From Verrucomicrobiota bacterium (GTDB lineage: Bacteria > Verrucomicrobiota > Verrucomicrobiia > Chthoniobacterales > Terrimicrobiaceae): a stretch of DNA of 35,509 bases. The translations under genes were made by a program, and so were the position numbers. Positions 791 to 35,509 of this stretch are shown here, piece by piece. The notes beneath the pieces were generated by a model that ran no database searches, was not told the origin of the DNA, and worked only from the letters and a program-made list of their open reading frames with translations. The DNA lies in NCBI GenBank assembly GCA_026398255.1, contig JAPLTG010000041.1:1-35509 (forward strand), written 5' to 3'. How positions within the stretch are numbered: the first letter of the stretch is position 1; the number at the start of each line of letters is the position of its first letter.

Positions 791-3700
791 ATGTTGCGTC
801 TTGCCAGTATACTATTTTTATTTTTTTCTACCATTGACTTGCACTCGCAACCAATGGATGCAGAACTTATAAAGACATTTAAGATTCAAGAAGAAGGAAT
901 TGCATATTTTACGAATGGAAATCCAGAAAAAGCTCTGCCTCTACTTTTAGAATCAAAAAAACGCTTAGAAAATAAACTAGGAAATAAGCATTTAGCGGTA
1001 GCTGCTGCATATTATATTCTAGGAGGAGCTTATTTTGATTTAGAGAAAGATAACGAGGCTCTGATTTATAATGAGAAAGCCTTGGCGATCTACGAAAAAA
1101 CAGATCATCAGTATACTGAGAATTTACTCGCTTCAATTTCGTGCAGTTACCAAAGGCTAGGCGAGCATAAGAAAGCGATACCTGCCCTAGAAAAACTTGC
1201 TGCAATAAAGAAAGCCAAATTTGGATACACCAGCAATGACCACGGAATAGCATTAAACAGCATAGCCAATTCTTATCAATCATTAGGCGAGCATGGCAAG
1301 GCGGCAGCGATTCGTGAGGATGTATTAAAAATAGTATTAAAGATTTTTAATAAGGATAGCCCAAATGTTATTACAACTTATTTAAATTTATCTTTAGACT
1401 ATATGCATGCTGGTGAGAATGAAAAAGCTCTACCATTTACCCATCAGGCTTTGGAGATCTTCGAAAAAAACAAAGGAAAAGAGCACCCCGACACGGCAGC
1501 AACTCTTAATGATTTAGCTTCTCTTTACCAAGCAACCGGAGACTACGAAACAGCACTACCGCTCTTTGATCGTGCCATCGCGATCAATGAAAAAGTTCTT
1601 GGCCCAAAACATCCCAATACGGCTGCAAGCCTGAATAATCTCGCTTTTCTTTACTGCGCAATAGGAGACTATACAAAGGCCGTGCGAACCTACGAAAGCG
1701 CCTTGGCTATTCTGGAAGAAGTTCTTGGGGCGGAACATCCCAATACGGCTGCGATCCTAAACAATCTGGCCTTTGCTTACAAATCAATGGGAAACTATAC
1801 GAAGGCCCTGCCGATCTATCAAAGCGCCTTGGCGATCCGAGAAAAATCTCCAGGGCCGGATAATCTCGAGACAGCGCAGAGTCTTAACAATTTGGCTTCC
1901 ATTTACCAAGACATTGGAGACTACGCGAAGGCCCTGTCTCTCTACGAACGCGGTCTTACGATCTATGAAAAAGCTCTTGGGCCTGAACATCCTGACACGG
2001 GCGCAAGCCTTAACAATCTGGCTTCTCTCTATATATCAATGGGAGAACTTGCAAGGGCACAACTCCTCCATGAACGCGCCTTGGCAATACGGGAAAAAAC
2101 TCTTGGGCCAGATCATCCTGATACGGCCGCCAGCCTCAACAATATGGCTTTTCTTTACTCAACTATAGGGGGTTACGCAAAAGCTCTGCCGCTTTATGAA
2201 CGCGCCTTGGCAATTACGGAAAAAGCTTTTGGGCCAGATCATCCCACTACAGCTATGAGCCTGAATAATCTGGCCTCTGTCTATAACTCAATCCGAGACT
2301 ACACCAAGGCCCGGCCCCTTCTCGAACGCACCTTGGCGATCAATGAAAAATCTCTCGGACCAGAACATCCCAATACGGCCGCGAGCTTAAACAATCTGGC
2401 TTTTCTTTTTAGCTCCATGGCAGAATATGAGAAAAGCCTTCCGCTTTACGAACGCGCCTTGGCAATCCGAGAAAAAAACCTCGGGCCAGAACATCCTGAT
2501 ACGGCCGCGAGCTTAAACAATCTGGCTTTTCTTTTTAGCTCCATGGCAGAATATGAGAAGAGCCTTCCGCTCTACGAACGCGCCCTGGCTATCCGAGAAA
2601 AAAACCTCGGGCCAGAACATCCTGATACGGCCGAGAGCCTCAGTGATTTAGCTATTCTCAAATACCGAAAGGGCGAAATCTCCAAAGCGCGTGCTTATGC
2701 TGAACGGCACATCACAGCCAAGCAGAGTGAATTACAAACCATCCTCACCCAAGATGAGGGCACTCGACTTTCGTGGCAGCATGTGAATCAATCGTTTTGG
2801 TTAGCTTGTTTATTGGAGCCGGGTGCGATCGCGGATTTGGTGCTTCGCATGAAAGGGGTTGTTTTGGATTCCTTGGTGGAAGATCGCTCGATCGCGCTGG
2901 CGGCCCAGAGTAGCGGTGAAGGCGTGGAGAGATTGAAAAAAATCGCCCAACTTCAAGCCCGCCTTTCCAAGTTGGCATTTGAACCCGGTCAGGATGAAGA
3001 AGTCACCCGCTTGAAAGGGGAAATCAGCCAACTCCAAAGAGACATGGCGGCAAAATATCTGGGCCGCAACCTCCAACGCGCAAGCGCCACGATCGCCCAA
3101 GCGGATATCACCGCCAAGTTAAGCGAGTGCAGCGCACTCATCGATCTTTTTCAATTCCCAGATCCCAAGCTCAAGGGGGGCGAAGCCGAGTGCCTCGGTG
3201 CGATCCTCATGGCACCGAACAACAAGCTCGAATTTGTTCGTATCGACGGGGCCAAAGCCATTCGCCAAGCCATCGAATCCCTGCGCCAAGGCATCGCCAA
3301 TGGCGATGCCGCTTGTGTCAAAGAAGAAACAGAGTTTCTCTCGGATAAACTCTGGCGACCCATCGCTCATAAGATTCCTGAAGGCACCAACCAATTGGTT
3401 ATCAGCCCCGATGGTGACCTGAACTTCCTATCCTTTGCGGCTCTTCTCGGCGAGGACGGTAATTTTTTAGCCGAAAGCTACGACATTTCCTATGTCGGGA
3501 ATGCCCGGGATTTGTTGCGGGAAAGCAATCCAAACCCTCCAAATCGGATTCGCATTTTCGGCAACCCGATTTTCGACCAAACCACTGAGCCTGTTGAGGA
3601 AAATCGCTTCTCATTCCGGAGTATGGAGGTAGATGTGTTCGGTCAGATTCAACTCCCTTCCTTGCCCGGAACGGAAAAGGAGTGCGCCGAAATCCAAAAA

Positions 3701-4468
3701 ATTGCCGCCAACAGCGGGTGGGATCTGGAAACCTTCACCCGTGATCGGGCCAACGAAAAAAACATTCGCGGAACATCCAAGCCCGGCATCCTGCATCTGG
3801 CCACCCATGGATTTTATCTCAACTCCTACACGCCGCCCGGAGACAACACTAGGGGGATGTCCGTAATCGGAATCAAAGCCCCGCAAATCAACAAAAAAGG
3901 CGTGGACCCCATGCGCGCGAGCGGTATTGCTCTTACTGGCGCTCAATCCACACTGCGTTCATGGGCTGAGCGCAAGGCTCCCGATCCCGAGAACGATGGC
4001 ATCCTTACGGCTGAGGAGGTAGCGGCCCTTGATCTGCAAGGCACATGGCTTGTGTCGCTCTCCGCCTGTGAAACCGGCGTGGGCGAAGCGCGATCCGGCG
4101 AGGGAGTGCTGGGGCTACGCCGATCTTTCATGATGGCCGGGGCCGAAAACCTCCTGATGACCCTCTGGCCGGTCGCAGACCAAACCACATCCGAAATCAT
4201 GGCCGACTTTTACCGAGAGGCACTCAAGACCGGCAATGCCCCCGGTTCTCTCGCCAAAGTCCAACGCGAATGGCTCGTCAAACTGCGGAAAGAAAAGGGC
4301 CTGCTGGAAGCCGTGCGCGATGCCGGCCCCTTCGTGATGGCCACCATTGGCAAGCCGTTGCCACCTCTCCCCCGCGAACCTGCTATACAAGAATCCCTGC
4401 TGGATAAAGTCGGCAGGAAAATTGAAGCGCTCATCCAATCCAACAACGCCGACATCAAGAACAACTGA
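791..4468 (+). CDS. exported TPR-CHAT protein (caspase-like peptidase domain)
   Basis: The product has 1225 residues. Residues 1-19 form a signal peptide ending at LHS. Residues about 30-640 hold about fifteen tetratricopeptide repeats of the 42-residue kinesin-light-chain type, with recurring EHPDTAASLNNLA and LPLYERALAIREK motifs. The C-terminal third (about 830-1200) is a CHAT domain, the caspase/separase-related cysteine peptidase fold. The expected dyad is visible: His1006 in HLATHG and Cys1093 in LSACETG. TPR-CHAT proteins are known as protein-activated proteases, with the TPRs sensing a partner. The export signal would place this one outside the cytoplasm. It is the largest gene of a five-gene operon (11 bp gap before, 3 bp after). 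Base composition shifts along the gene: AT-rich through roughly the first 700 bp, then near the window average. The substrate is unknown. Confidence 0.93.
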   Translation: MLRLASILFLFFSTIDLHSQPMDAELIKTFKIQEEGIAYFTNGNPEKALPLLLESKKRLENKLGNKHLAVAAAYYILGGAYFDLEKDNEALIYNEKALAIYEKTDHQYTENLLASISCSYQRLGEHKKAIPALEKLAAIKKAKFGYTSNDHGIALNSIANSYQSLGEHGKAAAIREDVLKIVLKIFNKDSPNVITTYLNLSLDYMHAGENEKALPFTHQALEIFEKNKGKEHPDTAATLNDLASLYQATGDYETALPLFDRAIAINEKVLGPKHPNTAASLNNLAFLYCAIGDYTKAVRTYESALAILEEVLGAEHPNTAAILNNLAFAYKSMGNYTKALPIYQSALAIREKSPGPDNLETAQSLNNLASIYQDIGDYAKALSLYERGLTIYEKALGPEHPDTGASLNNLASLYISMGELARAQLLHERALAIREKTLGPDHPDTAASLNNMAFLYSTIGGYAKALPLYERALAITEKAFGPDHPTTAMSLNNLASVYNSIRDYTKARPLLERTLAINEKSLGPEHPNTAASLNNLAFLFSSMAEYEKSLPLYERALAIREKNLGPEHPDTAASLNNLAFLFSSMAEYEKSLPLYERALAIREKNLGPEHPDTAESLSDLAILKYRKGEISKARAYAERHITAKQSELQTILTQDEGTRLSWQHVNQSFWLACLLEPGAIADLVLRMKGVVLDSLVEDRSIALAAQSSGEGVERLKKIAQLQARLSKLAFEPGQDEEVTRLKGEISQLQRDMAAKYLGRNLQRASATIAQADITAKLSECSALIDLFQFPDPKLKGGEAECLGAILMAPNNKLEFVRIDGAKAIRQAIESLRQGIANGDAACVKEETEFLSDKLWRPIAHKIPEGTNQLVISPDGDLNFLSFAALLGEDGNFLAESYDISYVGNARDLLRESNPNPPNRIRIFGNPIFDQTTEPVEENRFSFRSMEVDVFGQIQLPSLPGTEKECAEIQKIAANSGWDLETFTRDRANEKNIRGTSKPGILHLATHGFYLNSYTPPGDNTRGMSVIGIKAPQINKKGVDPMRASGIALTGAQSTLRSWAERKAPDPENDGILTAEEVAALDLQGTWLVSLSACETGVGEARSGEGVLGLRRSFMMAGAENLLMTLWPVADQTTSEIMADFYREALKTGNAPGSLAKVQREWLVKLRKEKGLLEAVRDAGPFVMATIGKPLPPLPREPAIQESLLDKVGRKIEALIQSNNADIKNN
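2401..2652 (+). repeat. two nearly identical 126-bp tandem units inside the TPR region
   Basis: The units beginning at 2401 and 2527 each encode one 42-residue TPR (FLFSSMAEYEKSLPLYERA and onward) and differ at only a few bases. The other TPRs of the gene are much more divergent at DNA level. This points to a recent single-repeat expansion by slippage or unequal crossover. The similarity also reaches about 30 bp upstream of each unit. Confidence 0.9.
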
Positions 4469-7961: not shown

Positions 7962-8030
7962 CCTTTTTGAATTAGGGAATTGCAAAATCTCACAAGACCT
8001 CACATATTCTCACATTATATTTTGGAGAAT

Positions 8031-9128
8031 ATGGATGACTGGAAAGAATCGCGGTTGAGTCGGCGCTTGGCGCTGGATTCGGTGGTCGCCGAAAAGGTTT
8101 ACGCCATGATTGCCGAGATCGATGGCGTGAAGACCGGATGGCAACTCACCTCGCGCTTACAACCTCGAACGATTGATCGTCTGTCCCGTTCGGTCATCGT
8201 TACTTCGACCGGTGCTTCCAACCGTATCGAGGGCAACAAGCTTTCGGATGAAGAGGTGGAAGCGTTGTATCGCCAACTGCGGATCAAGAAATTCCGGACA
8301 CGCGACCAGCAAGAGGTCGCCGGTTACTTGGAGGTGCTGGAATCGATCTTTCAAAATTATCGGGAAATGAAACTCGGGGAATCCCTCGTTCTCCAGTTGC
8401 ACCGGGACATGCTTCGCCACTGCGAGAAAGATGTGCGCCACGCGGGAACCTACAAATTCGGCCCCAACCGGGTGGAGGCCAAAAATGCTGCAGGCGAAGT
8501 GGTGGGCATTGTCTTCGATCCCACGCCACCGCACCTCGTGCAAAAGGAGATGCAGGAGTTGATTGGTTGGTATGGCCAAGCCACGGGTGAGAACTTTCGG
8601 CATCCACTCATCCTCGCCGCCAATTTTCTATTTGAGTATCTGGCCATCCACCCTTTCCAGGATGGAAATGGAAGAACGAGTCGCCTTCTCACAAACCTGA
8701 TCTTGCTCCGTGGCGGCTATGAGTTCGCTGAAGTGGTCTCGCATGAAAAGCTCGTGGAAAATCGCAAAGCCGACTACTACCTCGCGCTCAATCGCACCCA
8801 GCGGACTTGGAAAAATGAGCAGGAGGACATCTCGGCTTGGCTCGTGTTTTTTCTGGAGGTCGTTCGTCAACAGTCCCGCGAGGCACTCGAAATTCTTTCA
8901 GGCGATCAGATCGAAAATTTGCTCTCAGAGAAACAAATCGTCCTTTGGCAATGGGCGAACAGCACCGGAGAATTTAGCCGCAAATCGGCCGTGGAAGCGC
9001 TCGCAATGCCTCCCCGAACGGTGGAATCAATTATCAAAAAACTTCTCGATTTGAAAAAACTCGATCGCTTGGGCGAGGGGCGCGCCACGCGATATCGCGT
9101 CTCTCCGCCGAAGTCCAAGGCGCCTTGA
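8031..9128 (+). CDS. Fic-family AMP-transferase-like protein with N-terminal inhibitory motif and C-terminal winged helix
   Basis: The product has 365 residues. Fic proteins move AMP (or related groups) from a nucleotide to a target hydroxyl. The complete active-site loop HPFQDGNGRTSR is present with catalytic His207. The N-terminal part carries Ser63-x-x-x-Glu67-Gly68, the [S/T]xxxE[G/N] inhibitory motif of class II Fic proteins, whose glutamate blocks productive ATP binding. The C-terminal 80 residues look like a winged helix (SRKSAVEALAMPPRTVESII), as in many Fic/DUF4172-type regulators. ATG at 8031 is chosen because of the GGAG at 8024-8027; a TTG at 7980 would add 17 residues. It is a stand-alone gene without a separate antitoxin, starting 70 bp after the duplicated gene remnant, and may have arrived with the cassette. 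Confidence 0.93.
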   Translation: MDDWKESRLSRRLALDSVVAEKVYAMIAEIDGVKTGWQLTSRLQPRTIDRLSRSVIVTSTGASNRIEGNKLSDEEVEALYRQLRIKKFRTRDQQEVAGYLEVLESIFQNYREMKLGESLVLQLHRDMLRHCEKDVRHAGTYKFGPNRVEAKNAAGEVVGIVFDPTPPHLVQKEMQELIGWYGQATGENFRHPLILAANFLFEYLAIHPFQDGNGRTSRLLTNLILLRGGYEFAEVVSHEKLVENRKADYYLALNRTQRTWKNEQEDISAWLVFFLEVVRQQSREALEILSGDQIENLLSEKQIVLWQWANSTGEFSRKSAVEALAMPPRTVESIIKKLLDLKKLDRLGEGRATRYRVSPPKSKAP

Positions 9129-14856: not shown

Positions 14857-15178
14857 AATCCTTCTCCACGACAAGCCGGTGGGGTTGCTCGAGGAGCTTG
14901 ATCACGGGTATCGTTTCACCTACTCGGCGGCTTATCTCAATGACCCGGGGGCCGTTTCCGCGAGCCTCACGCTTCCCTTGAGGGCCGAGCCTTTCGAGGA
15001 CAAGCGGCTTTTTCCCTTTTTTGACGGACTTATTCCCGAGGGATGGTTGCTGGAGATTGCCGAAAAAACATGGAAGATCGACTCTCGTGACCGCATGGGC
15101 CTTTTGCTGGCCTGCTGTCGGGATTGTATCGGTGCTGCTGGAGTGGTGCCGATTGAGGAGGAGGCAGCACATGAATAA
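14843..15178 (+). CDS. hipS: HipS-like protein (separate HipA N-terminal domain)
   Basis: The product has 111 residues and corresponds to the N-terminal subdomain (couple_hipA) that in E. coli HipA is fused to the kinase. Visible features are EILLHDKPVGLL, the YLNDPGAVSASLTLPL stretch and FFDGLIPEGWLL with Trp68. In the tripartite HipBST system of E. coli O127, HipS is the antitoxin that blocks the kinase, and a Trp of its core region is reported to matter; Trp68 is the likely counterpart (inference). It overlaps hipB by 14 bp and hipT by 8 bp (ATGAATAA), so all three are coupled. The start at 14843 is set by homology and overlap. Confidence 0.9.
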   Translation: MRKAEILLHDKPVGLLEELDHGYRFTYSAAYLNDPGAVSASLTLPLRAEPFEDKRLFPFFDGLIPEGWLLEIAEKTWKIDSRDRMGLLLACCRDCIGAAGVVPIEEEAAHE

Positions 15179-16124
15179 ACCGCGCTGCAAGATTTGCTTG
15201 GGTGTCCTCGACGGTGAAGAAATGGATTACCATGCCGCGTGCTGCCGCAGGCTTTTTGGCAGCGCGCAGCCTCCGCAGCTTCCCTACTCGTGGGCTGCAC
15301 TGAATGCAATGGCCGAACAGATCGTCCGCAGCCATGTCGCGGTTCCCGGCGTCCAGCCCAAACTTTCCCTGCACTTGGAATCCGGGCGAACGCGTGGCGG
15401 CGGCCGATTCACCCTCGTCGGGCTCGAAGGTGGCTTTATTCTCAAACCCCCTGTGGAACGGTTTCCACAAATGCCCGAACTGGAGCATCTCACCATGCGC
15501 ATGGCGGCTTGCTTTGGCATGGAAACGGCCGATTGCGGACTGATAGCGATGATGGACGGCCAGGTAGCTCTGGTCGTTAGGCGCATGGATAGGGTGGAAG
15601 GGCGCAAGTTGGGCATGGAGGACATGTGCCAGTTGACTGATCGGATGACCGAGGAAAAATACCGGGGTTCCCTGGAGGCGGTTGGCAGGAAGATTCGACA
15701 GCACTGCAGCCATCCGGGCCTGGATGCGCTGCGATTTTTCGAGGTGAACCTGTTCAGTTTTTTAACAGGAAATTCCGACATGCACCTCAAGAACTTTTCC
15801 CTGATTCGTTCCCAAGCCGGAGAGATTCGCCTCTCGCCGGCTTACGACCTGCTGCCAACCGTGCTCTTGTTGCCTGAGGATGCGGAGGAAAGCGCCCTGA
15901 CCATCCAGGGCCGAAAAAACCGCATCACGCGGGGGGATTTCCTCGCTTTGGGGAGCGCGTTGGGATTGACCGGGCGCCAAGTCTCCAATGCGCTGGGCCG
16001 ATTCGAAAAGGGGTTGAGCGCGGCAATCGCTCTCGTCAGCGCCGGCTTCTGTTCGGAGGAAATGAAGGCGCGCTATCAGGCGTTGATGAAGCAGCGCTGG
16101 GAGCGGCTACAAGACAAAAACTAA
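15171..16124 (+). CDS. hipT: HipT-like Ser/Thr kinase toxin
   Basis: The product has 317 residues. It opens with a CxxC-x11-HxxC cluster (Cys6, Cys9, His21, Cys24) that may bind zinc. The Gly-rich loop GVQPKLSL begins at Gly60. The catalytic loop NSDMHLKN has Asp203 and Asn208, and the metal-binding Asp226 sits in SPAYDLLPT. HipA/HipT kinases phosphorylate aminoacyl-tRNA synthetases; HipT of E. coli targets TrpS. The two serines that E. coli HipT autophosphorylates (57 and 59) are Ala57 and Pro59 here, with the same numbering. The start at 15171 overlaps hipS by 8 bp; an upstream in-frame start would cover most of hipS and is rejected. All active-site residues are present, so it should be active. 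Confidence 0.92.
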   Translation: MNKPRCKICLGVLDGEEMDYHAACCRRLFGSAQPPQLPYSWAALNAMAEQIVRSHVAVPGVQPKLSLHLESGRTRGGGRFTLVGLEGGFILKPPVERFPQMPELEHLTMRMAACFGMETADCGLIAMMDGQVALVVRRMDRVEGRKLGMEDMCQLTDRMTEEKYRGSLEAVGRKIRQHCSHPGLDALRFFEVNLFSFLTGNSDMHLKNFSLIRSQAGEIRLSPAYDLLPTVLLLPEDAEESALTIQGRKNRITRGDFLALGSALGLTGRQVSNALGRFEKGLSAAIALVSAGFCSEEMKARYQALMKQRWERLQDKN

Positions 16125-24402: not shown

Positions 24403-24648
24403 ATGTCTGAAAAATCCATCGAAGAAAAAGTCAAAGATATCATTGTCGAGCAACTTGGCGTGAACGCCGAACAAGTCACCACCACCGCCTCGTTCATCGA
24501 GGACCTCGGTGCCGATTCGTTGGACACCGTCGAGCTCGTCATGGCATTCGAGGAGGAGTTCGGAGTCGAGGTTCCCGACGAAGACGCCGAGAAGCTCCAG
24601 AGCGTGGGTGATGTCATCAAATACATCGAGGAGAAGGCCGGCAAATAA
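24403..24648 (+). CDS. acpP: acyl carrier protein
   Basis: The product has 81 residues and is strongly acidic. The prosthetic-group site [11 protein letters not shown] with Ser39 is intact; this serine takes the 4'-phosphopantetheine that carries growing fatty acids. The rest ([27 protein letters not shown]) is typical of AcpP of fatty acid synthesis. ATG at 24403 is chosen by family length. The gene is monocistronic: a strong terminator follows 28 bp after the stop, and none of the usual fab genes is next to it. Confidence 0.97.
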
Positions 24649-24676
24649 GCCGCTTCCCGCGACAAATTTTTTCACG

Positions 24677-24704
24677 AAAACCCCGCTTCGGCGGGGTTTT
24701 TCTT
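24677..24704 (+). terminator. intrinsic terminator of acpP
   Basis: A perfect 10-bp stem AAAACCCCGC/GCGGGGTTTT encloses a TTCG tetraloop (24677-24700) and is followed by a T-rich tail. This is a textbook rho-independent terminator and sits directly downstream of acpP. Confidence 0.95.
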
Positions 24705-24745: not shown

Positions 24746-26137
24746 ATGAAAATTCTGATCGCCGCGAGCGAATTCGCCCCCTTCGCGCAGACCGGGGATT
24801 TCGCCGGATATGTCGAGCGTTTGGCCGCCGCGACCGCCGCCGCCGGGAATGAAACCACGGTCGTTCTTCCACTCTACCGCTGCATTCGTGAAGGCCGCAT
24901 CGTCGGCCTCAAACGAGGAAAACTCCGCTTGAGCATCGAACTCGGCGCGAACCGCGTTTCAGCCGAAGTCTGGGAGGCGTCTGGCCCCGGCGGGGTGAGG
25001 TTGATCTTCCTCGAGCGCGACGAGCTTTTCGATCGCACCGGGCTCTACGGCATGGACGGTCGCGATTACCAAGACAACGCCGCCCGATTCATTTTTTTCT
25101 CCAAGGCCGTTGTGGAACTCGCCCGCCGCGAGTCGCCGGATGTCGTCCACGCCCTGGGCTGGCAGAGCGCCCTAGTATCGGTCTTTGCGCGCGACCAACG
25201 CCTCGAGATTCCGACCGTCCTCTCGCCTGTGAGCCTCGAATACCAGGGGCATTTCTGGAGCCACGATTTCGCGCTCACGAACCTGCCCGGCGAGTGGTTC
25301 CCGAATGTGCTCGAGTTCTACGGCAGCATGAATTTCCTGAAAGCCGGCATCGCCTGCGCGAACTCTGTCGTTCTGCCCGGCGCGCTGAATCTCGCCGCCA
25401 TGCAAACGCCTGAGCACGGTTGCGGACTCGAAAATCTCCTGCGCCAAAACGCCGCGAAACTCGAAGGCATCGCGCCAGGCGTGGATTTGCCCGCGCCCGC
25501 CGCGCTTTCGGCGAAGGAAAAAAACGCCGCGTGCGAGGCGCTGTTCAAGTCCGCAGGTAAAACCGCGCGCGCCGTTTTTGTGGCCCACGCGGGCTCGACC
25601 GGTGAGGGCGGCCTGGGTCAATTGTGCGAGGCGTTATCGCGTTTGCCGATGGGCGAGGTTTTGGTCGCGCTCATTGGCGCCGCCCCCGAGTCGCAGAGGC
25701 AAAGGATCCAAATCGCCCTCCGCCGCCGCGCGGGGGGGATGGTGCATTTTCCCGAGCCGACCCCCGCCGAGCAGGAACGCCTTCTTCAAGCCGCGGACTT
25801 CATCGTGGTGCCGGGAGCGCTCGAGCCCGGCTGTGCCTTCTTCCGTTTGGCGCTGCGCGCGGGGATCGTGCCCGTCGTCGAACAAGGCGCGGGACTCCAT
25901 GAACTCGTGCGGGATTTCGATCCCGTGACGGGCCAGGGGAATGGACTCGTTTACTATCGTCATTCGGTGGAGGCGTTGATCGACGCGATTCTCCGCGCCG
26001 TCGAGCTTCCGCCCGCCACAAAGAGCCTGCTGGTGGAGCGCAACCGCGCGCGGGATTTTTCATGGGCGTCCACCGCCAAAGCCCTCGACCGCCTTTACTC
26101 GCGCTTGCCCGGCCGTGCCGGCCGCCTTGCTGCCTGA
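24746..26137 (+). CDS. degenerate glycogen/starch synthase-like protein (GT5)
   Basis: The product has 463 residues, near the normal length of GlgA, and keeps the family order: KILIAASEFAPFAQTG at the start, LFDRTGLYG, FLKAGIACANSVVL, a TPEHGCGLENLL stretch, and a C-terminal ALEPGCAFF region. Key positions differ from E. coli GlgA: the Lys of KTGGL is Gln (QTGDF), HAHDW is HALGW, the VHNLAYQG stretch is SPVSLEYQG, and SRLTxQKG is replaced by AHAGSTGEGG. The Glu of the EPCG motif is kept in LEPG. It may be a catalytically dead paralogue or act on another sugar nucleotide. It leads the operon with recJ (4 bp gap) and recG. Confidence 0.85.
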   Translation: MKILIAASEFAPFAQTGDFAGYVERLAAATAAAGNETTVVLPLYRCIREGRIVGLKRGKLRLSIELGANRVSAEVWEASGPGGVRLIFLERDELFDRTGLYGMDGRDYQDNAARFIFFSKAVVELARRESPDVVHALGWQSALVSVFARDQRLEIPTVLSPVSLEYQGHFWSHDFALTNLPGEWFPNVLEFYGSMNFLKAGIACANSVVLPGALNLAAMQTPEHGCGLENLLRQNAAKLEGIAPGVDLPAPAALSAKEKNAACEALFKSAGKTARAVFVAHAGSTGEGGLGQLCEALSRLPMGEVLVALIGAAPESQRQRIQIALRRRAGGMVHFPEPTPAEQERLLQAADFIVVPGALEPGCAFFRLALRAGIVPVVEQGAGLHELVRDFDPVTGQGNGLVYYRHSVEALIDAILRAVELPPATKSLLVERNRARDFSWASTAKALDRLYSRLPGRAGRLAA

Positions 26138-26141
26138 GCCC

Positions 26142-27830
26142 ATGCGCCGACGCTGGATTTTTCCCTCGGAGGCGAATCCCGGAGCGGTCTCGAAAATCCG
26201 CTCCGAGCTGGGCGTGCCACGCTTCATTGCGGACATGCTCGTGCGGCGGGGATTTGGAGATCCCATCAACGCCGAAGCCCAGCTCCACCCGCGCCTGCGC
26301 TCGCTCTCCGCGCCCGAGGATTTGCCGGAAATGGGTGCCGCGACGGAGAGGATTCTCGCCGCCCTGCGCGCGAAAGAGCGTATCGCGCTTTATGGCGATT
26401 ATGATGTCGATGGCATCACCTCGCTCGCGATCCTTGCGCGGGTTTTGAAAGCCTACGGAGCCGAGGCGCCGTGCTTCCTGCCCCTGCGCGCGGAGGAGGG
26501 CTACGGTCTCAGTGAGGCGGGGGTGGATCGTTGCCTCGAACTCCACAATCCCAGCCTTCTCATCGCGGTGGATTGCGGCACGACTTCGGTCAAAGAAATC
26601 GCGCGCCTGCGCTCACGCGGCGTCGATGTCGTCGTGCTCGACCACCACGAGCCCGCCGAGGAACGTCCCGATTGCGTGGCGCTGGTAAATCCCAAGCTCG
26701 GCGCCGATTTTCACTACCTCTGCAGTGCTGGCGTGGTCTTCAAACTCGCTCATGCTCTGCTAAAATCCTCGCGCGTGGAGGGGGTGGACCTCCGCGAATA
26801 CCTCGACCTCGTTGCGCTGGCGACGATCGCCGACCTCGTTCCGCTGGTGGATGAGAATCGGATTTTTGTGAGCCACGGCCTGCGGCAGATGGAAAACACA
26901 CGCTGGCCCGGCCTCGCCGCGCTCAAGCAGGTCTCGGGCGTGGGAGCGCCGATCCGCGTGGGCGATGTCGGGTTCCGCATGGGCCCGCGCATCAATGCCG
27001 CCGGGCGGCTCGGACCCGCCTCCGAGGCTTTGGCGTTGTTGCTCACCGAGGATTTCCATGAGGCGGACCGACTCGCCGCTGGACTCGATGCCCACAACCG
27101 CGAACGCCAAGGCGTCGAGCGCCATGTCGTGAAGGAGGCCGAGGAGTGGGTGGATAAAAATTTCCAAGCCGGCAGCGATGTTTCGATCGTCGCAGGCAGT
27201 CGCGATTGGCACATCGGAGTTCTCGGCGTCGTCGCCTCCCGCCTCATGCGCCGCCACCATCGGCCGACTTTCGTTGTGGGCTTCGATGAAAACGGAGCGG
27301 GCAAGGGAAGCGGACGCGGCATCGAGGGATTGTCGCTTGTCGGCCTGCTGCGCGATTGCTCCGAGCATTTGGAAAAATTCGGCGGTCACGAAATGGCGGC
27401 GGGAATTTCCATCCACGAAAAATCCTTCCCCGCCTTTCGCGAGGCTTTCGAGTCCGCCGCACGCGGAGCGGCGACCGAGGAAATGCTCGTTCCACGCCTG
27501 AACCTCGACTGCGAGGTGCCGCTGCGAGAGATCGATTACGCCTTGATGGAGACGCAGGATTTGCTCGAGCCGTTCGGCAACTCGAACCCCCAGCCGGTGT
27601 TTTATTCCCGCGCCGTCACGCCCGCCGCTGCGCCGCGCGTGATGAAGGAAAAACACCTGCGCGTGGAGTTTTCCGTGGGACGTGAGCGGATGGCCGCCGT
27701 GTTTTTCAACGCGCCCGTCGAGGACCTTCCGCGCCCGCCGTGGGACATCGCCTACACGCTCGAGTGGAACCACTGGAACGGCCGCTCGGAGCCGCAACTC
27801 CGCTTGCTGGAGGTCCGCCACGCCGAATGA
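26142..27830 (+). CDS. recJ: single-stranded-DNA-specific exonuclease RecJ
   Basis: The product has 562 residues, close to E. coli RecJ (577). DHH-family motifs are in order: YGDYDVDG (motif I), AVDCGT (II), LDHHEP (III) and the later DLVPLVDEN and GPRINAAGRLG. The DHHA1 part contains GKGSGRGIEGL and FGGHEMAAG, and the end is an OB-type domain. RecJ degrades single-stranded DNA 5' to 3' in recombination, mismatch and base-excision repair. ATG at 26142 lies 4 bp after the glycogen-synthase-like gene; its stop overlaps recG (ATGA). An operon of two repair proteins is functionally sensible. Confidence 0.96.
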   Translation: MRRRWIFPSEANPGAVSKIRSELGVPRFIADMLVRRGFGDPINAEAQLHPRLRSLSAPEDLPEMGAATERILAALRAKERIALYGDYDVDGITSLAILARVLKAYGAEAPCFLPLRAEEGYGLSEAGVDRCLELHNPSLLIAVDCGTTSVKEIARLRSRGVDVVVLDHHEPAEERPDCVALVNPKLGADFHYLCSAGVVFKLAHALLKSSRVEGVDLREYLDLVALATIADLVPLVDENRIFVSHGLRQMENTRWPGLAALKQVSGVGAPIRVGDVGFRMGPRINAAGRLGPASEALALLLTEDFHEADRLAAGLDAHNRERQGVERHVVKEAEEWVDKNFQAGSDVSIVAGSRDWHIGVLGVVASRLMRRHHRPTFVVGFDENGAGKGSGRGIEGLSLVGLLRDCSEHLEKFGGHEMAAGISIHEKSFPAFREAFESAARGAATEEMLVPRLNLDCEVPLREIDYALMETQDLLEPFGNSNPQPVFYSRAVTPAAAPRVMKEKHLRVEFSVGRERMAAVFFNAPVEDLPRPPWDIAYTLEWNHWNGRSEPQLRLLEVRHAE

Positions 27831-29892
27831 TCCAGCTCTCGCCGGAGACGCCGCTGGATTCCCTCGAATGGATTCCGCGTCCGCGCCAGACCGCGTTGCG
27901 CCGCCTCGGGCTCCTCACGCTGGAAGATTTGCTTCGTCACTTTCCACGGCGTTACGAGGACCGCACGCGGTTTGACCGGTTTCCCGACCAAGCCTCCGAC
28001 ACGCCGGTGTGCCTGTGTGGCGTGGTGGAAAAAAACAGTTACCGCCGTTTCGGTGGACGCGCGATTTTCGAAGTGCGTCTTGTGGAAGAAGGCGGCGGGC
28101 TGCTCAGCGGGCCGTTGATGTGCCGCTGGTTCAATATGCCTTGGGTAAAAAACATGGTCGGCCAGGGCGACCGGCTCGTGGTTTTTGGAAAACCCCGCGT
28201 GCGCTCGAAGCAAATCGCCATGGAGCATCCGGAGTTCGAGGTCATCGAGGAAGGCACCTCGATCCACTTCGAGCGCATCGTTCCAATCCACGCCGCGGGC
28301 GATGGGATTCCCGCGCGGGTGCTGCGGGAGTTCATCCACCGCGCGCTCGAATCCACCGATCTCTCCGCGATCCCGGCGCTGTGGCGCGGAGAGGGAAAAA
28401 TTCTGCCCGATGTGTGGCGAGCGGTGCATTTTCCCGAGACTTTCGCCGAGTGTGAGGAGGCGCGGCGGCAACTCGTGCGCGATGTGTTTCTCGGCATCCA
28501 GATCGTCCTCTGCTCGCGCCACACGCTGGCGAAAAACTCGGGCGGCGTGTCGCGTCCCGGCACGGGGTGGATTTGGGAAAAAATCGAAGCCGCGTTGCCG
28601 TTTCAGCTTACGCCCTCGCAGCGCGAGGTGATCGCCGAGATCGCCGCCGACATGGCCTCGCCGCATCGCATGAACCGCCTCCTGCAGGGCGATGTCGGCT
28701 CGGGCAAAACCCTCGTCGCCCTCCGTGCGATGATCCAGGCCCACGAAAGTGGTTGGCAGGCGGCGCTGATGGCGCCCACCCAAATCCTCGCCGAGCAGCA
28801 TTATCTCAACTTCCGTCGCCTCCTCGACCCGCTTGGAATTCCCGTGGTTTTACGAACCTCCGCCCGCAAGGAGGGCTCTGGCGAGTCCGACCTTTTCAAC
28901 CCCGCCAAATCCACGGTGCCGCCGCTCGTCGTCGGCACCCACGCCCTACTCTTCGAAGGAGCGGAATTCGAAAAACTCGGCCTCGTCGTGATCGATGAGC
29001 AGCACAAATTCGGCGTGCTCCAGCGCTCGCGCCTGATCGGACGGGCCGACGCGCCCGATGTGCTCGTGATGACCGCCACGCCGATCCCCCGCACGATCAC
29101 GCAAACTCTCTACGGCGACCTCGATGTTTCCATCATCCGCGAGCGCCCCGCCGGCCGCGGCGCAATCGTCACCGCCCTGCGCGATGAATCCAAACTCCCG
29201 GCGATCATCGAATTCCTGCGCGGTGAGATCGCCGCAGGACGCCAAGCCTACATCGACTATCCGCTCGTCGAGGAATCCGAGAAATTGGAACTCAAAGCCG
29301 CCACGGCGGAGTTTGAAAAATGGAGGCAACTCCTCGCCCCCTCCACCGTGGGCCTCGTCCATGGTCGACTCGACGCCGAAGCGAAGGAGTCCGGTCCGTG
29401 ATGCGAGAATTCCGGGAGGGCAGGACCAGCGTGCTGGTTTCCACCACCGTCATCGAGGTCGGCGTCGATGTTCCGAACGCCACGATTATGCTCATCGAGG
29501 AAGCCGGGCGTTTCGGCCTCTCGCAAATCCACCAACTGCGCGGCCGCATCGGGCGGGGATCGCAAAAATCGTGGTGCGTTCTTTTGCAAAACGACGCCAC
29601 CGGCGCGGCACTGGAGAAATTGCAGGTCCTCGAAAAAACGAACGACGGCTTCGAGATCGCCGAGGCCGACCTGCGGCTCCGGGGCCCCGGCGACATCCTT
29701 GGCACCGCGCAAACCGGCCTGCCCCCGCTCGGCTTGGGCGACCTCGTGCGCGACGCCGACATCATGACTGAGGCCCGCCGCGCCGCGCGCGAAATCCTCG
29801 CCGCTGACCCCGAGCTGAAAAACCCGGAGAACGCCCGCCTGCGCGCCCATGTCGAGCGCCACGCCACCGCACAAGAATTGGCGGAAGGCTGA
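27827..29892 (+). pseudogene. recG: ATP-dependent DNA helicase RecG, split by a frameshift
   Basis: The first frame (27827-29401, 524 residues) covers the wedge/OB domain and helicase domain 1: QGDVGSGKT (Walker A), APTQILAEQHY, IDEQHKFGV (DEAH-type box) and MTATPIPRT. It ends in LVHGRLDAEAKESGP and a stop. The frame continues as VMREFREG..., VLVSTTVIEVGVDVPNA and QLRGRIGRG (29401-29892). Removing five bases from TCCGGTCCG (29390-29398) restores KESVMREF, the family sequence, so a 5-bp duplication is the likely cause. The stop and a new ATG overlap as TGATG (29399-29403), so two coupled fragments could be made. RecG remodels stalled replication forks and Holliday junctions. All motifs on both sides are otherwise intact, so the break is recent or a sequence error. 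Confidence 0.93.
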
Positions 29893-32965: not shown

Positions 32966-35509
32966 TTGATTGCATCCAGAACCAGTGGTTATCTACGTTT
33001 CTTGTGCGCTTTTGCGATTTTGATGGCGGCAACGGCACTGGCCCAAGCCGGTCTCTCGATTACGACAAAGAGTCCACTGAGTCCGATTGCAGCGGGTTCT
33101 CCCGCGAGTATTGCATTTGAGGCGCAGGGAGGCAATGGTTCGCTGACATGGAGCGCGGCCTCCGGGACTGTTTTGCCCGAGGGAATGAGTCTCTCACCGT
33201 CCGGAGTTTTAACCGGAACGCCCATCAAGTCGAACTATGTCAGCTTTCGACTGAAGGTCAGCGATTCTTCCACCCCCGTTCAGTCTGGGCTGAAGACTTT
33301 CGTTCTGCAAATCACACCCGATGCGCCGACGATATCTTCGCCGAAATTTAATCCGCCGGCTCAAGTCGACAAATTCTACACCTATACATTCAATGCCACT
33401 GGAGGGAAGCCGCCCTACACATTTTCAGCGAATTCGACGCTGCCTACGGGGCTGACACTCAGTTCCAGCGGGGTGTTGTCCGGCACGCCATTACTATCTG
33501 CTGCACCGAATTCTACCAATGAATACAAGATAGCGGTAAAAGTCACCGGCTCCAATGCCGTTCCGCAGTCCTTGATCCGCACATATAAGTTTCCGGTAAT
33601 GCCTGCCGCGCTGAATTTAATAACAACCAAAACTCTTCCCAATGCGGAAATGGGACAGGAATATTTTTTCGATGGTTTGCAGATAACTGGAGGGAAACCA
33701 CCCTACACATTCAGCGCCGGGGCGGCTTTTCCGGGTAATCTTGTGATAGCGCAGGACGGCACGATTTCCGGAACCCCGAATACAGCGGGAGATTTCAAGT
33801 TGCGGATCAATGTGAAGGACGCGAACAACCGCACGGGGACCGGGTATGTGGCTTTGAAAGTGATTGATGCGCCGACGCCCAAGATCACGACGGCCTCACC
33901 ATTGTATTGGACGCTGAATCAGACCATCGAGACGACGCTGGTGGCAAGCGCAGAACAAGCACCTTACACATGGGCTAAGATCGGCACGAGCTCAGATCCT
34001 CTGCGGAATTTGCCGGCGGGAGTGAGCTTGAATACGAATGGCACTTTTGAAGGCAAGCCTACGGCTGCAGGAACCTTCAAGGTAGCGATTCGGGTTACGG
34101 ATAGCCTCGGGAAAGGCAGCACAAAAACATTTACGATTGTGGTATCCGCTGGGTCACTGGAAATCACGAGCCCATCAGTGCTTCCGGCGGCGTATGCAGG
34201 CGTATCGGTGAATTCGATACTGACAGTGTCTGGAGGATTTGCACCCTACAAGTGGAGTTTGAAAAATCGGGGCACGCTACCTGCCACCGTTTTATTAGGC
34301 AACAGCACGGGTAGCCTGACAGGAACGATAAACGCCGCAGGAAACTACACCTTTACCGCGCTGGTTGCAGACACGCGAAGCGGCACACCGGCCACGGCGG
34401 AAAAGCAACTTACGCTACCAGTATTGGGGTATGATTTGGCGATTACCACAAGCAGCCTGCCCGATGGCACGGCGGGAGCGAACTACACATCGCCGCTCAC
34501 TGCCACGGGAGGCAAAACTCCCTACTCTTGGTCATTCACCCCGCCCATTATCGGCCTCGCCGCGACGAATGGAAATCTTGCCGGCAAGCCGACGACAGCA
34601 GGCAACTACACGATCGCGCTGAAAGTGACCGATGCCAACGCGAAGTTTGCAACCCGGAACCTGACGCTCCGTATTAATGACGCCCCGCCGCTGGCTTTCA
34701 ATCCGCTGTCACTGCCGAACGGGAGGGTTGGGATTTCCTACAATGGCACCCTGGGAGCGACAGGAGGATTTTCCCCCTACACATTTGCGCTGAAAACCGG
34801 CAGCACGCTACCCCCCGGCCTCATCCTTGCTTCAACAACAGGAGCCATCACGGGGAAGCCCACCACAGCCGGAACCTATAAGTTCGCGATTATTCTAAAA
34901 GACTCCAAGGGCACCACCAAAGAGCATGAGTTCACGATCATTATCGATCCCTATGGAATGTCGATCAGTGGACCCGCGACCATTTCCGGCGCACAATTCA
35001 GCGCCATCACGCCGGCACAGTTTACTGTGACTGGAGGCACGGCGAACTACACTTGGAGCGTCACGCCCGCCCTTCCGAGCACCCTGCTCCTGAATTCAAA
35101 GACCGGTGTTGTTTCCGGCAACCTCACGGCTGCCATTGGCAATTACACCGTGGCCGTGAAAGTCACCGACGGCAATCTGCAGTCGGCTACCCAAAACTGC
35201 ATCGTGCGGATTGAGAAGCCTCTGCCACTTGAATGGGTAATCCCCGAGCCCATCCTTCCCGAGGGGCAGGTAGGAGAGGCTATCTCCGTGGATTTGCGCG
35301 TCACCGGCGGTAAGCCTCCCTACACCTTTGCGCTGAAAATCGGCAGCACCTTACCAAGCGGTCTCACGCTTGCAGCAGGAAAAATCTCCGGCACGCCCAG
35401 AGCAGAGGGCACCTTCAAGTTCACAATCGTAGCGAGTGACTCCCAATCACCGAAAGCCACCGCCGAGCGCGAGTTCACACTGGTCATCAAGCCTGCCGAA
35501 CCTCTGGGG
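32966..35509 (+). CDS. giant exported protein of putative Ig-like (He_PIG-type) repeats, 3' end outside the window
   Basis: The frame is open from upstream of 33023 to the end of the window (848 codons from TTG at 32966). A signal peptide ends at ALAQA, cleaving before GLSITTKSP. About nine repeats of 80-100 residues follow, each with (A/T)GGKPPYTF, LPxGLTL, SGTPTTAGTY and a closing VTD strand, the putative-Ig (He_PIG) pattern of surface adhesion and polysaccharide-binding proteins. The start is uncertain: the TTG gives a full signal peptide with a basic region, while ATG 33023 would cut into its hydrophobic core; neither has a clear ribosome binding site. Such proteins in Verrucomicrobiota can be several thousand residues long and often end in an autotransporter or sorting domain, which cannot be seen here. 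Confidence 0.88.
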   Translation, partial: MIASRTSGYLRFLCAFAILMAATALAQAGLSITTKSPLSPIAAGSPASIAFEAQGGNGSLTWSAASGTVLPEGMSLSPSGVLTGTPIKSNYVSFRLKVSDSSTPVQSGLKTFVLQITPDAPTISSPKFNPPAQVDKFYTYTFNATGGKPPYTFSANSTLPTGLTLSSSGVLSGTPLLSAAPNSTNEYKIAVKVTGSNAVPQSLIRTYKFPVMPAALNLITTKTLPNAEMGQEYFFDGLQITGGKPPYTFSAGAAFPGNLVIAQDGTISGTPNTAGDFKLRINVKDANNRTGTGYVALKVIDAPTPKITTASPLYWTLNQTIETTLVASAEQAPYTWAKIGTSSDPLRNLPAGVSLNTNGTFEGKPTAAGTFKVAIRVTDSLGKGSTKTFTIVVSAGSLEITSPSVLPAAYAGVSVNSILTVSGGFAPYKWSLKNRGTLPATVLLGNSTGSLTGTINAAGNYTFTALVADTRSGTPATAEKQLTLPVLGYDLAITTSSLPDGTAGANYTSPLTATGGKTPYSWSFTPPIIGLAATNGNLAGKPTTAGNYTIALKVTDANAKFATRNLTLRINDAPPLAFNPLSLPNGRVGISYNGTLGATGGFSPYTFALKTGSTLPPGLILASTTGAITGKPTTAGTYKFAIILKDSKGTTKEHEFTIIIDPYGMSISGPATISGAQFSAITPAQFTVTGGTANYTWSVTPALPSTLLLNSKTGVVSGNLTAAIGNYTVAVKVTDGNLQSATQNCIVRIEKPLPLEWVIPEPILPEGQVGEAISVDLRVTGGKPPYTFALKIGSTLPSGLTLAAGKISGTPRAEGTFKFTIVASDSQSPKATAEREFTLVIKPAEPLG

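Follow-up and report, generated by a model that had tools for sequence, protein, structure and literature searches.

The window, the whole 35,509-nucleotide stretch of DNA that we analysed, is one contig (C33) of a 2.6 Mb Verrucomicrobiota assembly rated 100% complete with 0.3% contamination, and carries between acpP and recJ a gene for a GlgA-like protein of the GT5 family, a gene that homology annotation would label glycogen synthase (Table 1). The neighbouring recJ and recG that the earlier note had pointed to both lie downstream, although recG is split across two frames in the window; a near relative (locus L009) has a single open frame there, and the split is either real or an error of sequencing or assembly. 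Because a terminator-like hairpin stands behind acpP and the recJ ATG lies just past the stop codon of the GT5-like gene, the latter is probably the first gene in a unit with recJ.

Table 1. Features at the locus of the GT5-like gene. Residue equivalences refer to E. coli GlgA.
Feature	Position	Strand	Basis
acpP (acyl carrier protein)	24403-24648	+	Named from sequence, not family search
Terminator-like hairpin, 11 pairs and T tail, between acpP and the GT5-like gene	24676-24701	+	Consensus match only
Predicted GT5 (GlgA-like) pseudoenzyme gene, 463 aa, ATG start	24746-26137	+	Open reading frame and translation, Pfam, NCBIfam, residue losses, dN/dS
N-terminal (acceptor-side) domain, residues 1-243	24746-25474	+	Boundary at E. 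coli residue 245
Q15 codon, K15 site (KTGGL to QTGDF)	24788-24790	+	Alignment
G138 codon, D137 site (HAHDW to HALGW)	25157-25159	+	Alignment
V162 codon, H161 site	25229-25231	+	Alignment
VLPG (residues 209-212), replacing canonical TTVS	25370-25381	+	Alignment
C-terminal (donor-side) domain, residues 244-463	25475-26134	+	Boundary at E. coli residue 245
G283 codon, R300 site	25592-25594	+	Alignment
G288 codon, K305 site	25607-25609	+	Alignment
E360 codon, E377 site, retained	25823-25825	+	Alignment
recJ, ATG four bases past the stop of the GT5-like gene (start not proven)	26142-27830	+	Pfam DHH, DHHA1, RecJ_OB
recG region, split between two frames near 29320-29400	27827-29892	+	Named from sequence, not family search

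Linkage to repair genes is seen in one genus only

Within the genus the linkage to recJ is real: the RecJ match starts 5-18 bases downstream in 13 of the 13 loci that have downstream sequence, and acpP lies upstream in 12 of the 13 loci with more than 500 bases upstream. The acpP/recJ-recG setting was not seen at loci of other genera. The coupling to repair genes that the earlier note had described therefore stands for the genus, and we rejected it as a general functional clue because it is seen only there. According to the hypothesis that the GT5-like protein belongs functionally to a recJ-recG unit, and acts in DNA repair or its control, or in protein-protein contacts that do not concern glucan, the constant proximity of recJ in the genus, and the hairpin that sets the gene apart from acpP, would reflect that role; however, beyond the genus recJ adjacency is not seen, and in several families a class III aminotransferase gene lies downstream instead. 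Since the recJ linkage is genus-only, the family-wide constraint described below is older than the repair linkage. That restriction, and the hairpin separating the gene from acpP, make gene order a poor guide to a repair role; the hypothesis as a whole, its protein-protein variant included, we consider unlikely while granting it an appreciable chance.

The class III aminotransferase gene lies at most 300 bases downstream, in the same orientation, at 22 loci from six families (genera g4 and g5 of the window's family, f1; f7, f8, f9 and f13; and part of f4), and the best solved relatives of its product are 4-aminobutyrate transaminases and amino-acid racemases. These loci (L024, L025, L028, L030, L031, L034, L036, L038, L040, L056, L057, L058, L061-L063, L065, L070-L072, L084, L101 and L108) keep the donor-site triad R300/K305/E377 (E. 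coli numbering) in some cases and not in others. The aminotransferase link was marked down as a functional clue because a search of 7 genomes of the genus gave no orthologue (0 of 7) at or above 50% identity. Upstream, many f4 and f9 loci, like the f8 locus, have a PTS EIIA gene with argS in divergent orientation, and many f11 loci have a poly(A)/CCA nucleotidyltransferase gene. No glycogen gene stands beside the GT5-like gene in the annotated neighbour clusters, which make up part of all neighbours.

Six of seven conserved ADP-glucose contacts are replaced

Homology places the protein in the GT5 family. Residues 2-234 match Pfam Glyco_transf_5 (PF08323; 3.6e-48), there is a GT1 domain match (4.3e-8), and positions 1-476 of the 477 of TIGR02095 (glgA) are covered, in agreement with the full-length GT5 fold claimed in the earlier note. 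The solved structures closest by sequence are the glycogen synthases 1rzu and 2qzs (1.6e-29), and Foldseek with a predicted structure, a weak model from three sequences (mean pLDDT 60.4, pTM 0.45), puts starch and glycogen synthases on top (6gne, 5.7e-22; 1rzu, 7.7e-20) at TM-scores of about 0.4. Like bacterial GlgA (GT5, EC 2.4.1.21; E. coli, A. tumefaciens), the protein has homology over its full length, the same domain order, the equivalent of E377 and, on the acceptor side, E9, Y165 and Q166-G167. Unlike a functional GlgA, it scores 209.6 bits against TIGR02095, below the cut-off of 328.45, has VLPG for TTVS, lacks D137, and retains one of the seven strictly conserved ADP-glucose contacts (K15, G18, H161, N246, R300, K305 and E377), the sole survivor being E377.

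In the alignment with E. coli GlgA, the changes are K15 to Q15, G18 to D18, L19 to F19, D137 to G138, H161 to V162, N246 to P244, R300 to G283 and K305 to G288, with E377 kept as E360; Tyr95, for which the alignment is uncertain, was left out of the kept residues. The earlier note had correctly read that Lys is missing from KTGGL, that Arg and Lys are missing from SRLTxQKG, and that the C-terminal Glu is retained. The change of the second His of HAHDW, which it had also listed, is present and is uninformative, because 5 of the 20 outgroup proteins, all canonical at five key sites, have Asn there; the meaningful loss in this motif is that of Asp (D137). The functions given here to these residues in binding ADP-glucose and glucan follow the tables of PMC6210743, with support in parts of PMC7137382 and PMC2576272; the role of the KXGGL motif was once questioned and later backed by crystal structures, according to a portion of PMC2576272. 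The changes are not chance or alignment noise, since 20 of 20 outgroup proteins keep the key sites and related losses occur in 21 of 21 f1 rows. Judged by its residues, the GT5-like protein is very unlikely to catalyse as a glycogen synthase.

Donor-site losses form a graded series across the order

A homologue of the GT5-like protein was found in 158 of the 213 genomes of the order, and a TIGR02095 match above the cut-off in 105 of 213; most of these assemblies are divided among many contigs, and some of the absences may be due to incompleteness. Motifs were read in 88 sequences of the order, in L109 (a canonical extra copy) and in 20 GT5 proteins of the same class but other orders, the last chosen from 299 matching class genomes, mostly as better-scoring matches outside the order, and leaning towards similar proteins. 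L109 stands beside a more typical copy in one genome of the order (G173), and a second copy in G166 (545.7 bits) lies outside the motif reading. The tree omits L009, L012 and L010, which duplicate rows that it includes, as well as L011 and the fragment L032; in L026, L053, L067 and a few others a stop lies inside or near the end of the match, and the frames used end there. L011 (JAPOIC010000215.1, a contig labelled Opitutaceae) was dropped: it has part of a close GT5-like relative, about 90 query-like residues that run on in the same frame into unrelated sequence, and is probably an assembly artefact.

The key sites K15, H161, R300, K305 and E377 are all present in 20 of 20 outgroup proteins. 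Within the order, K15 is gone in 86 of 87 scorable rows (Arg occupies the site in 52 of 88), and R300, K305 and E377 occur together in 48 of 88. In the window's family the complete triad is present in 0 of 21 rows, and 35 of 147 cells of the seven donor contacts are kept, vs. 147 of 147 in 21 canonical rows; as for the orthologues that the earlier note had proposed to seek, related donor losses are found in 21 of 21 rows. Within f1, E377 is kept in 19 of 21 rows, the R300 site varies (A, I, S, G, D, E), D137 is lost in all 21, and the acceptor-side E9, aromatic residue at 165 and Q166-G167 are kept in all 21. The aromatic residue at 165 is kept in 4 of 9 f9 rows.

The tree unites the 88 order rows (SH-aLRT 99); the window's protein falls in a subset of 42 of them (SH-aLRT 97), made up of f1, f6, f7, f8, f9, f10 and f13. 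Proline replaces the V of TTVS in 39 of these 42 rows, the exceptions being one f1 row and two f10 rows; elsewhere the motif is [T/S]TVS in f2, f4 and f5 and exactly TTVS in 20 of 25 f11 rows. Both f6 rows (2 of 2) combine the new proline motif with an intact triad, a pattern that points to K15 as the first loss in the lineage, TVS as the next and the donor site as the last. Parsimony gives three and four changes for R300 and K305; the claim of several independent losses was dropped because a constrained clade of 40 rows (f1, f7, f8, f9, f10 and f13) has a higher likelihood and is not rejected (p-AU 0.613).

In f11 (for example L073-L075, L079-L083, L085-L092, L094, L096-L100 and L102-L104) the triad is kept in 25 of 25 rows, Glu or Asp stands at 165 (canonical Tyr or Phe) in 25 of 25, and H or R stands at N162; from these residues, the f11 branch is possibly an active enzyme with a changed acceptor. 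The K15R form of E. coli GlgA reportedly keeps its rate and binds the donor more weakly; if it does, the f4 proteins may still be active.

These distributions bear on the possibility that the window's protein is itself an active glycosyltransferase with another donor or acceptor, working with the retained Glu and with new residues in place of R300 and K305. The persistence of Glu in most of f1, the full-length GT-B architecture, and the f11 pattern of an intact triad beside an acidic residue at 165, as if the acceptor had changed, are what such an enzyme would show. However, both basic residues that contact the donor phosphate are lost, the sites vary widely within f1, and f7, f9 and f10, probably of the same lineage, lose the Glu too. 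We regard an active transferase as distinctly unlikely. Among the non-glycogen roles raised in the earlier note, use of another donor is accordingly disfavoured, because both donor-phosphate contacts are gone, and a sensor or scaffold is plausible.

The gene is under purifying selection, and conservation in f1 is concentrated in the N-terminal domain

Between the GT5-like gene and its nearest relative (86% identity) dN/dS is 0.126 (dS 0.665), about twice the values for recJ and recG in the same genome pair (0.066 and 0.065). Eleven other triad-less pairs at 79% identity or more give 0.066-0.164, more divergent triad-less pairs give 0.28 and 0.26, two further pairs are saturated, and eight pairs that keep the triad (two from outgroup orders) give 0.053-0.213, all values being counting estimates on pairs, some of which share a sequence. 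The genus frames are open at 46-86% identity. A decaying glgA relic with no function could account for the rate relative to recJ and recG and for the absence of the gene from sampled members of f12 and from most of genus g14 of f4; it is contradicted by the open frames, the low dN/dS and newly conserved residues such as VLPG. Selection largely refutes decay, which we hold to be very improbable. We conclude that the gene is under purifying selection and, with the conserved columns of f1, is preserved as the earlier note had proposed.

The constraint is unevenly distributed in the window's family. Among the 21 f1 rows, 82 of 244 columns are near-invariant in the N-terminal domain vs. 21 of 223 in the C-terminal domain (p 1.7e-10); the bias is absent in the canonical, f4 and f11 sets (p 1.0, 0.32 and 1.0) and weaker in f9 and f7 (p 1.4e-5 and 5.0e-5), these p values being descriptive because columns share ancestry. 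When retention of canonical invariant columns is scored instead, f1 keeps 34 of 45 in the N-terminal domain vs. 22 of 43 in the C-terminal domain (p 0.026) and f9 has a bias (p 0.0029); there is no bias in f10 (19 of 45 vs. 23 of 43) or f13 (28 of 45 vs. 28 of 43), and that in f7 and f8 is not significant. For the window pair, dN/dS is 0.088 in the N-terminal domain vs. 0.165 in the C-terminal domain; several triad-keeping pairs likewise have the lower value in the N-terminal domain.

A predicted GlgM-GlgE route for glycogen

A second, normal glgA, for which the earlier note had suggested a search, was not found in the genome: seven further TIGR02095 matches all cover the C-terminal half and score at most 75 bits. 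The genome encodes GlgC (428 bits, cut-off 424.9; NF002772, 579.9 bits, cut-off 537), GlgB (938.5 bits, cut-off 463.95), GlgP (1183.5 bits, cut-off 552.9) and two GlgX proteins (975.1 and 693.5 bits, cut-off 640.9). It also encodes a GlgM-type GT4 (C34:3851-5044) that scores 528.9 bits against TIGR02149 (cut-off 302.4), matches M. smegmatis GlgM (6tvp) at 7.5e-111 and has the stretches HSLEPL, GRITRQKG and YEP-GI in common with it; the GT5-like gene is absent among the 19 TIGR02149 matches listed. A GlgE candidate has the GlgE N/S and C-terminal domains and matches solved GlgE (3zss) at 5.4e-190, with no NCBIfam match at 1e-60. Across the order, a GlgM-type protein scores above the cut-off in 177 of 213 genomes and a GlgE match occurs in 189 of 213. 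A GT4 GlgA homologue accompanied by GlgE is taken as GlgM in a part of PMC11046441, said there of Gram-positive bacteria.

Apart from the GT5 step the predicted glycogen pathway is complete. Given glgC, a GlgM-type GT4, glgE and glgB, and no other GT5, the gene content indicates that glycogen is probably made through GlgC-GlgM-GlgE-GlgB. The encoded GlgM-GlgE route offers a reason why GlgA became free to change: were polymerisation carried out by this route, a GT5 catalyst would be redundant. The GT5-like gene is not needed for the route, since sampled f12 genomes have GlgM and GlgE matches and lack the gene. That the protein is still an ADP-glucose glycogen synthase despite its changes might be argued from its being the sole GT5 in a genome with glgC and glgB; against this stand the loss of six of the seven donor contacts and the GlgM-type protein, which can explain use of ADP-glucose (parts of PMC7137382 and PMC11046441). 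We give such an enzyme almost no credence.

Like GlgM (GT4, alpha-maltose-1-phosphate synthase), the protein is a GT-B homologue in a genome with GlgE and GlgC; unlike it, the protein is not the best GlgM match here, as the genome has a separate, better GlgM candidate, and the protein lacks the donor residues that GlgM and GlgA have in common (PMC7137382, in part). Within the PVC superphylum, a GlgE route accompanies an impaired GlgC route in Waddliaceae and Criblamydiaceae (Chlamydiae), according to a portion of PMC7935935; the GlgA proteins described there are fused to glgB or shortened by a stop, and the Waddlia GlgA domain is active, unlike the present protein, which is unfused, full length and without the donor residues.

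A glucan-linked helper as a candidate function

We are highly confident that the GT5-like gene encodes a GT5 pseudoenzyme, maintained by selection although its ADP-glucose donor site is gone. For its function we favour, by analogy, plant STARCH SYNTHASE 5 (SS5, SSV) as the closest model, a parallel in working principle and not in descent. SS5 is a non-canonical, non-enzymatic protein of the GT5 family that promotes granule initiation (PMC10801857, in part), with the GT5 domain present and the GT1 domain absent in the account given in part of PMC8396644. Like SS5, the window's protein belongs to the GT5 family, is predicted to be non-catalytic, and has as its conserved half the N-terminal domain; unlike SS5, it has a GT1 domain, diverged but present, is bacterial, occurs in a genome with a GlgE route, and has a putative function. 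In such a mechanism the N-terminal surface, most likely the alpha-glucan-binding cleft, would be kept or reshaped, and the protein would act without catalysis, as a glucan-binding scaffold, a primer holder or a regulator of glycogen enzymes.

Of the features of an SS5-like helper, a GT5 homologue without catalytic residues under purifying selection is found here, and N-terminal conservation is found in f1, more weakly in f7 and f9, and by the retention measure not in f10 and f13. The acceptor-side residues kept throughout f1 count for a helper. Counted against it are the loss throughout f1 of D137, which contacts the acceptor glucose; the N-terminal bias, which is not general to donor-dead relatives; the lower N-terminal dN/dS of several triad-keeping pairs; the aromatic residue at 165, kept in fewer than half of the f9 rows; the GlgE candidate, which has no NCBIfam match at 1e-60; the annotated neighbours, among which no glycogen gene adjoins; and the sampled f12 genomes with GlgM and GlgE matches and no GT5-like gene. 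A glucan-linked helper role appears to us somewhat short of an even chance. The statement as a whole, namely a GT5 pseudoenzyme kept by selection, functioning through its N-terminal domain as a glucan-linked, SS5-like helper, we judge evenly balanced. More tentative still, and on present analogy doubtful, is an independently arisen bacterial counterpart of SS5: an order-wide lineage in which K15 was lost first, TVS next became [L/F]P[G/S] and the donor site was lost last, yielding a non-catalytic, glucan-binding organiser of GlgM-GlgE glycogen.

Among the papers listed in a literature search, in which subscription papers were thinly covered, no title or abstract beginning reports a non-catalytic GlgA in bacteria, which is not proof of absence. 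If the pseudoenzyme reading is true, counts of glgA overstate the classical pathway in this order, the relatives provide a natural graded series (K15 only, acceptor side, donor site) from polymerase to non-catalytic protein, and the protein is a testable candidate for non-enzymatic control of bacterial glycogen; a true SS5 counterpart would extend such control to particle initiation and number, as in starch.

Other genes in the window

Elsewhere on the plus strand the window encodes a 1225-residue protein with TPR repeats followed by a CHAT (caspase-like) domain (791-4468), near a low-GC window end; a Fic/DOC-family protein (7980-9128) and a HipA-C protein (15021-16124), types often found in toxin-antitoxin systems; and a repetitive protein with putative Ig (He_PIG) and PKD-like domains (32966-35509) that reaches the contig end.
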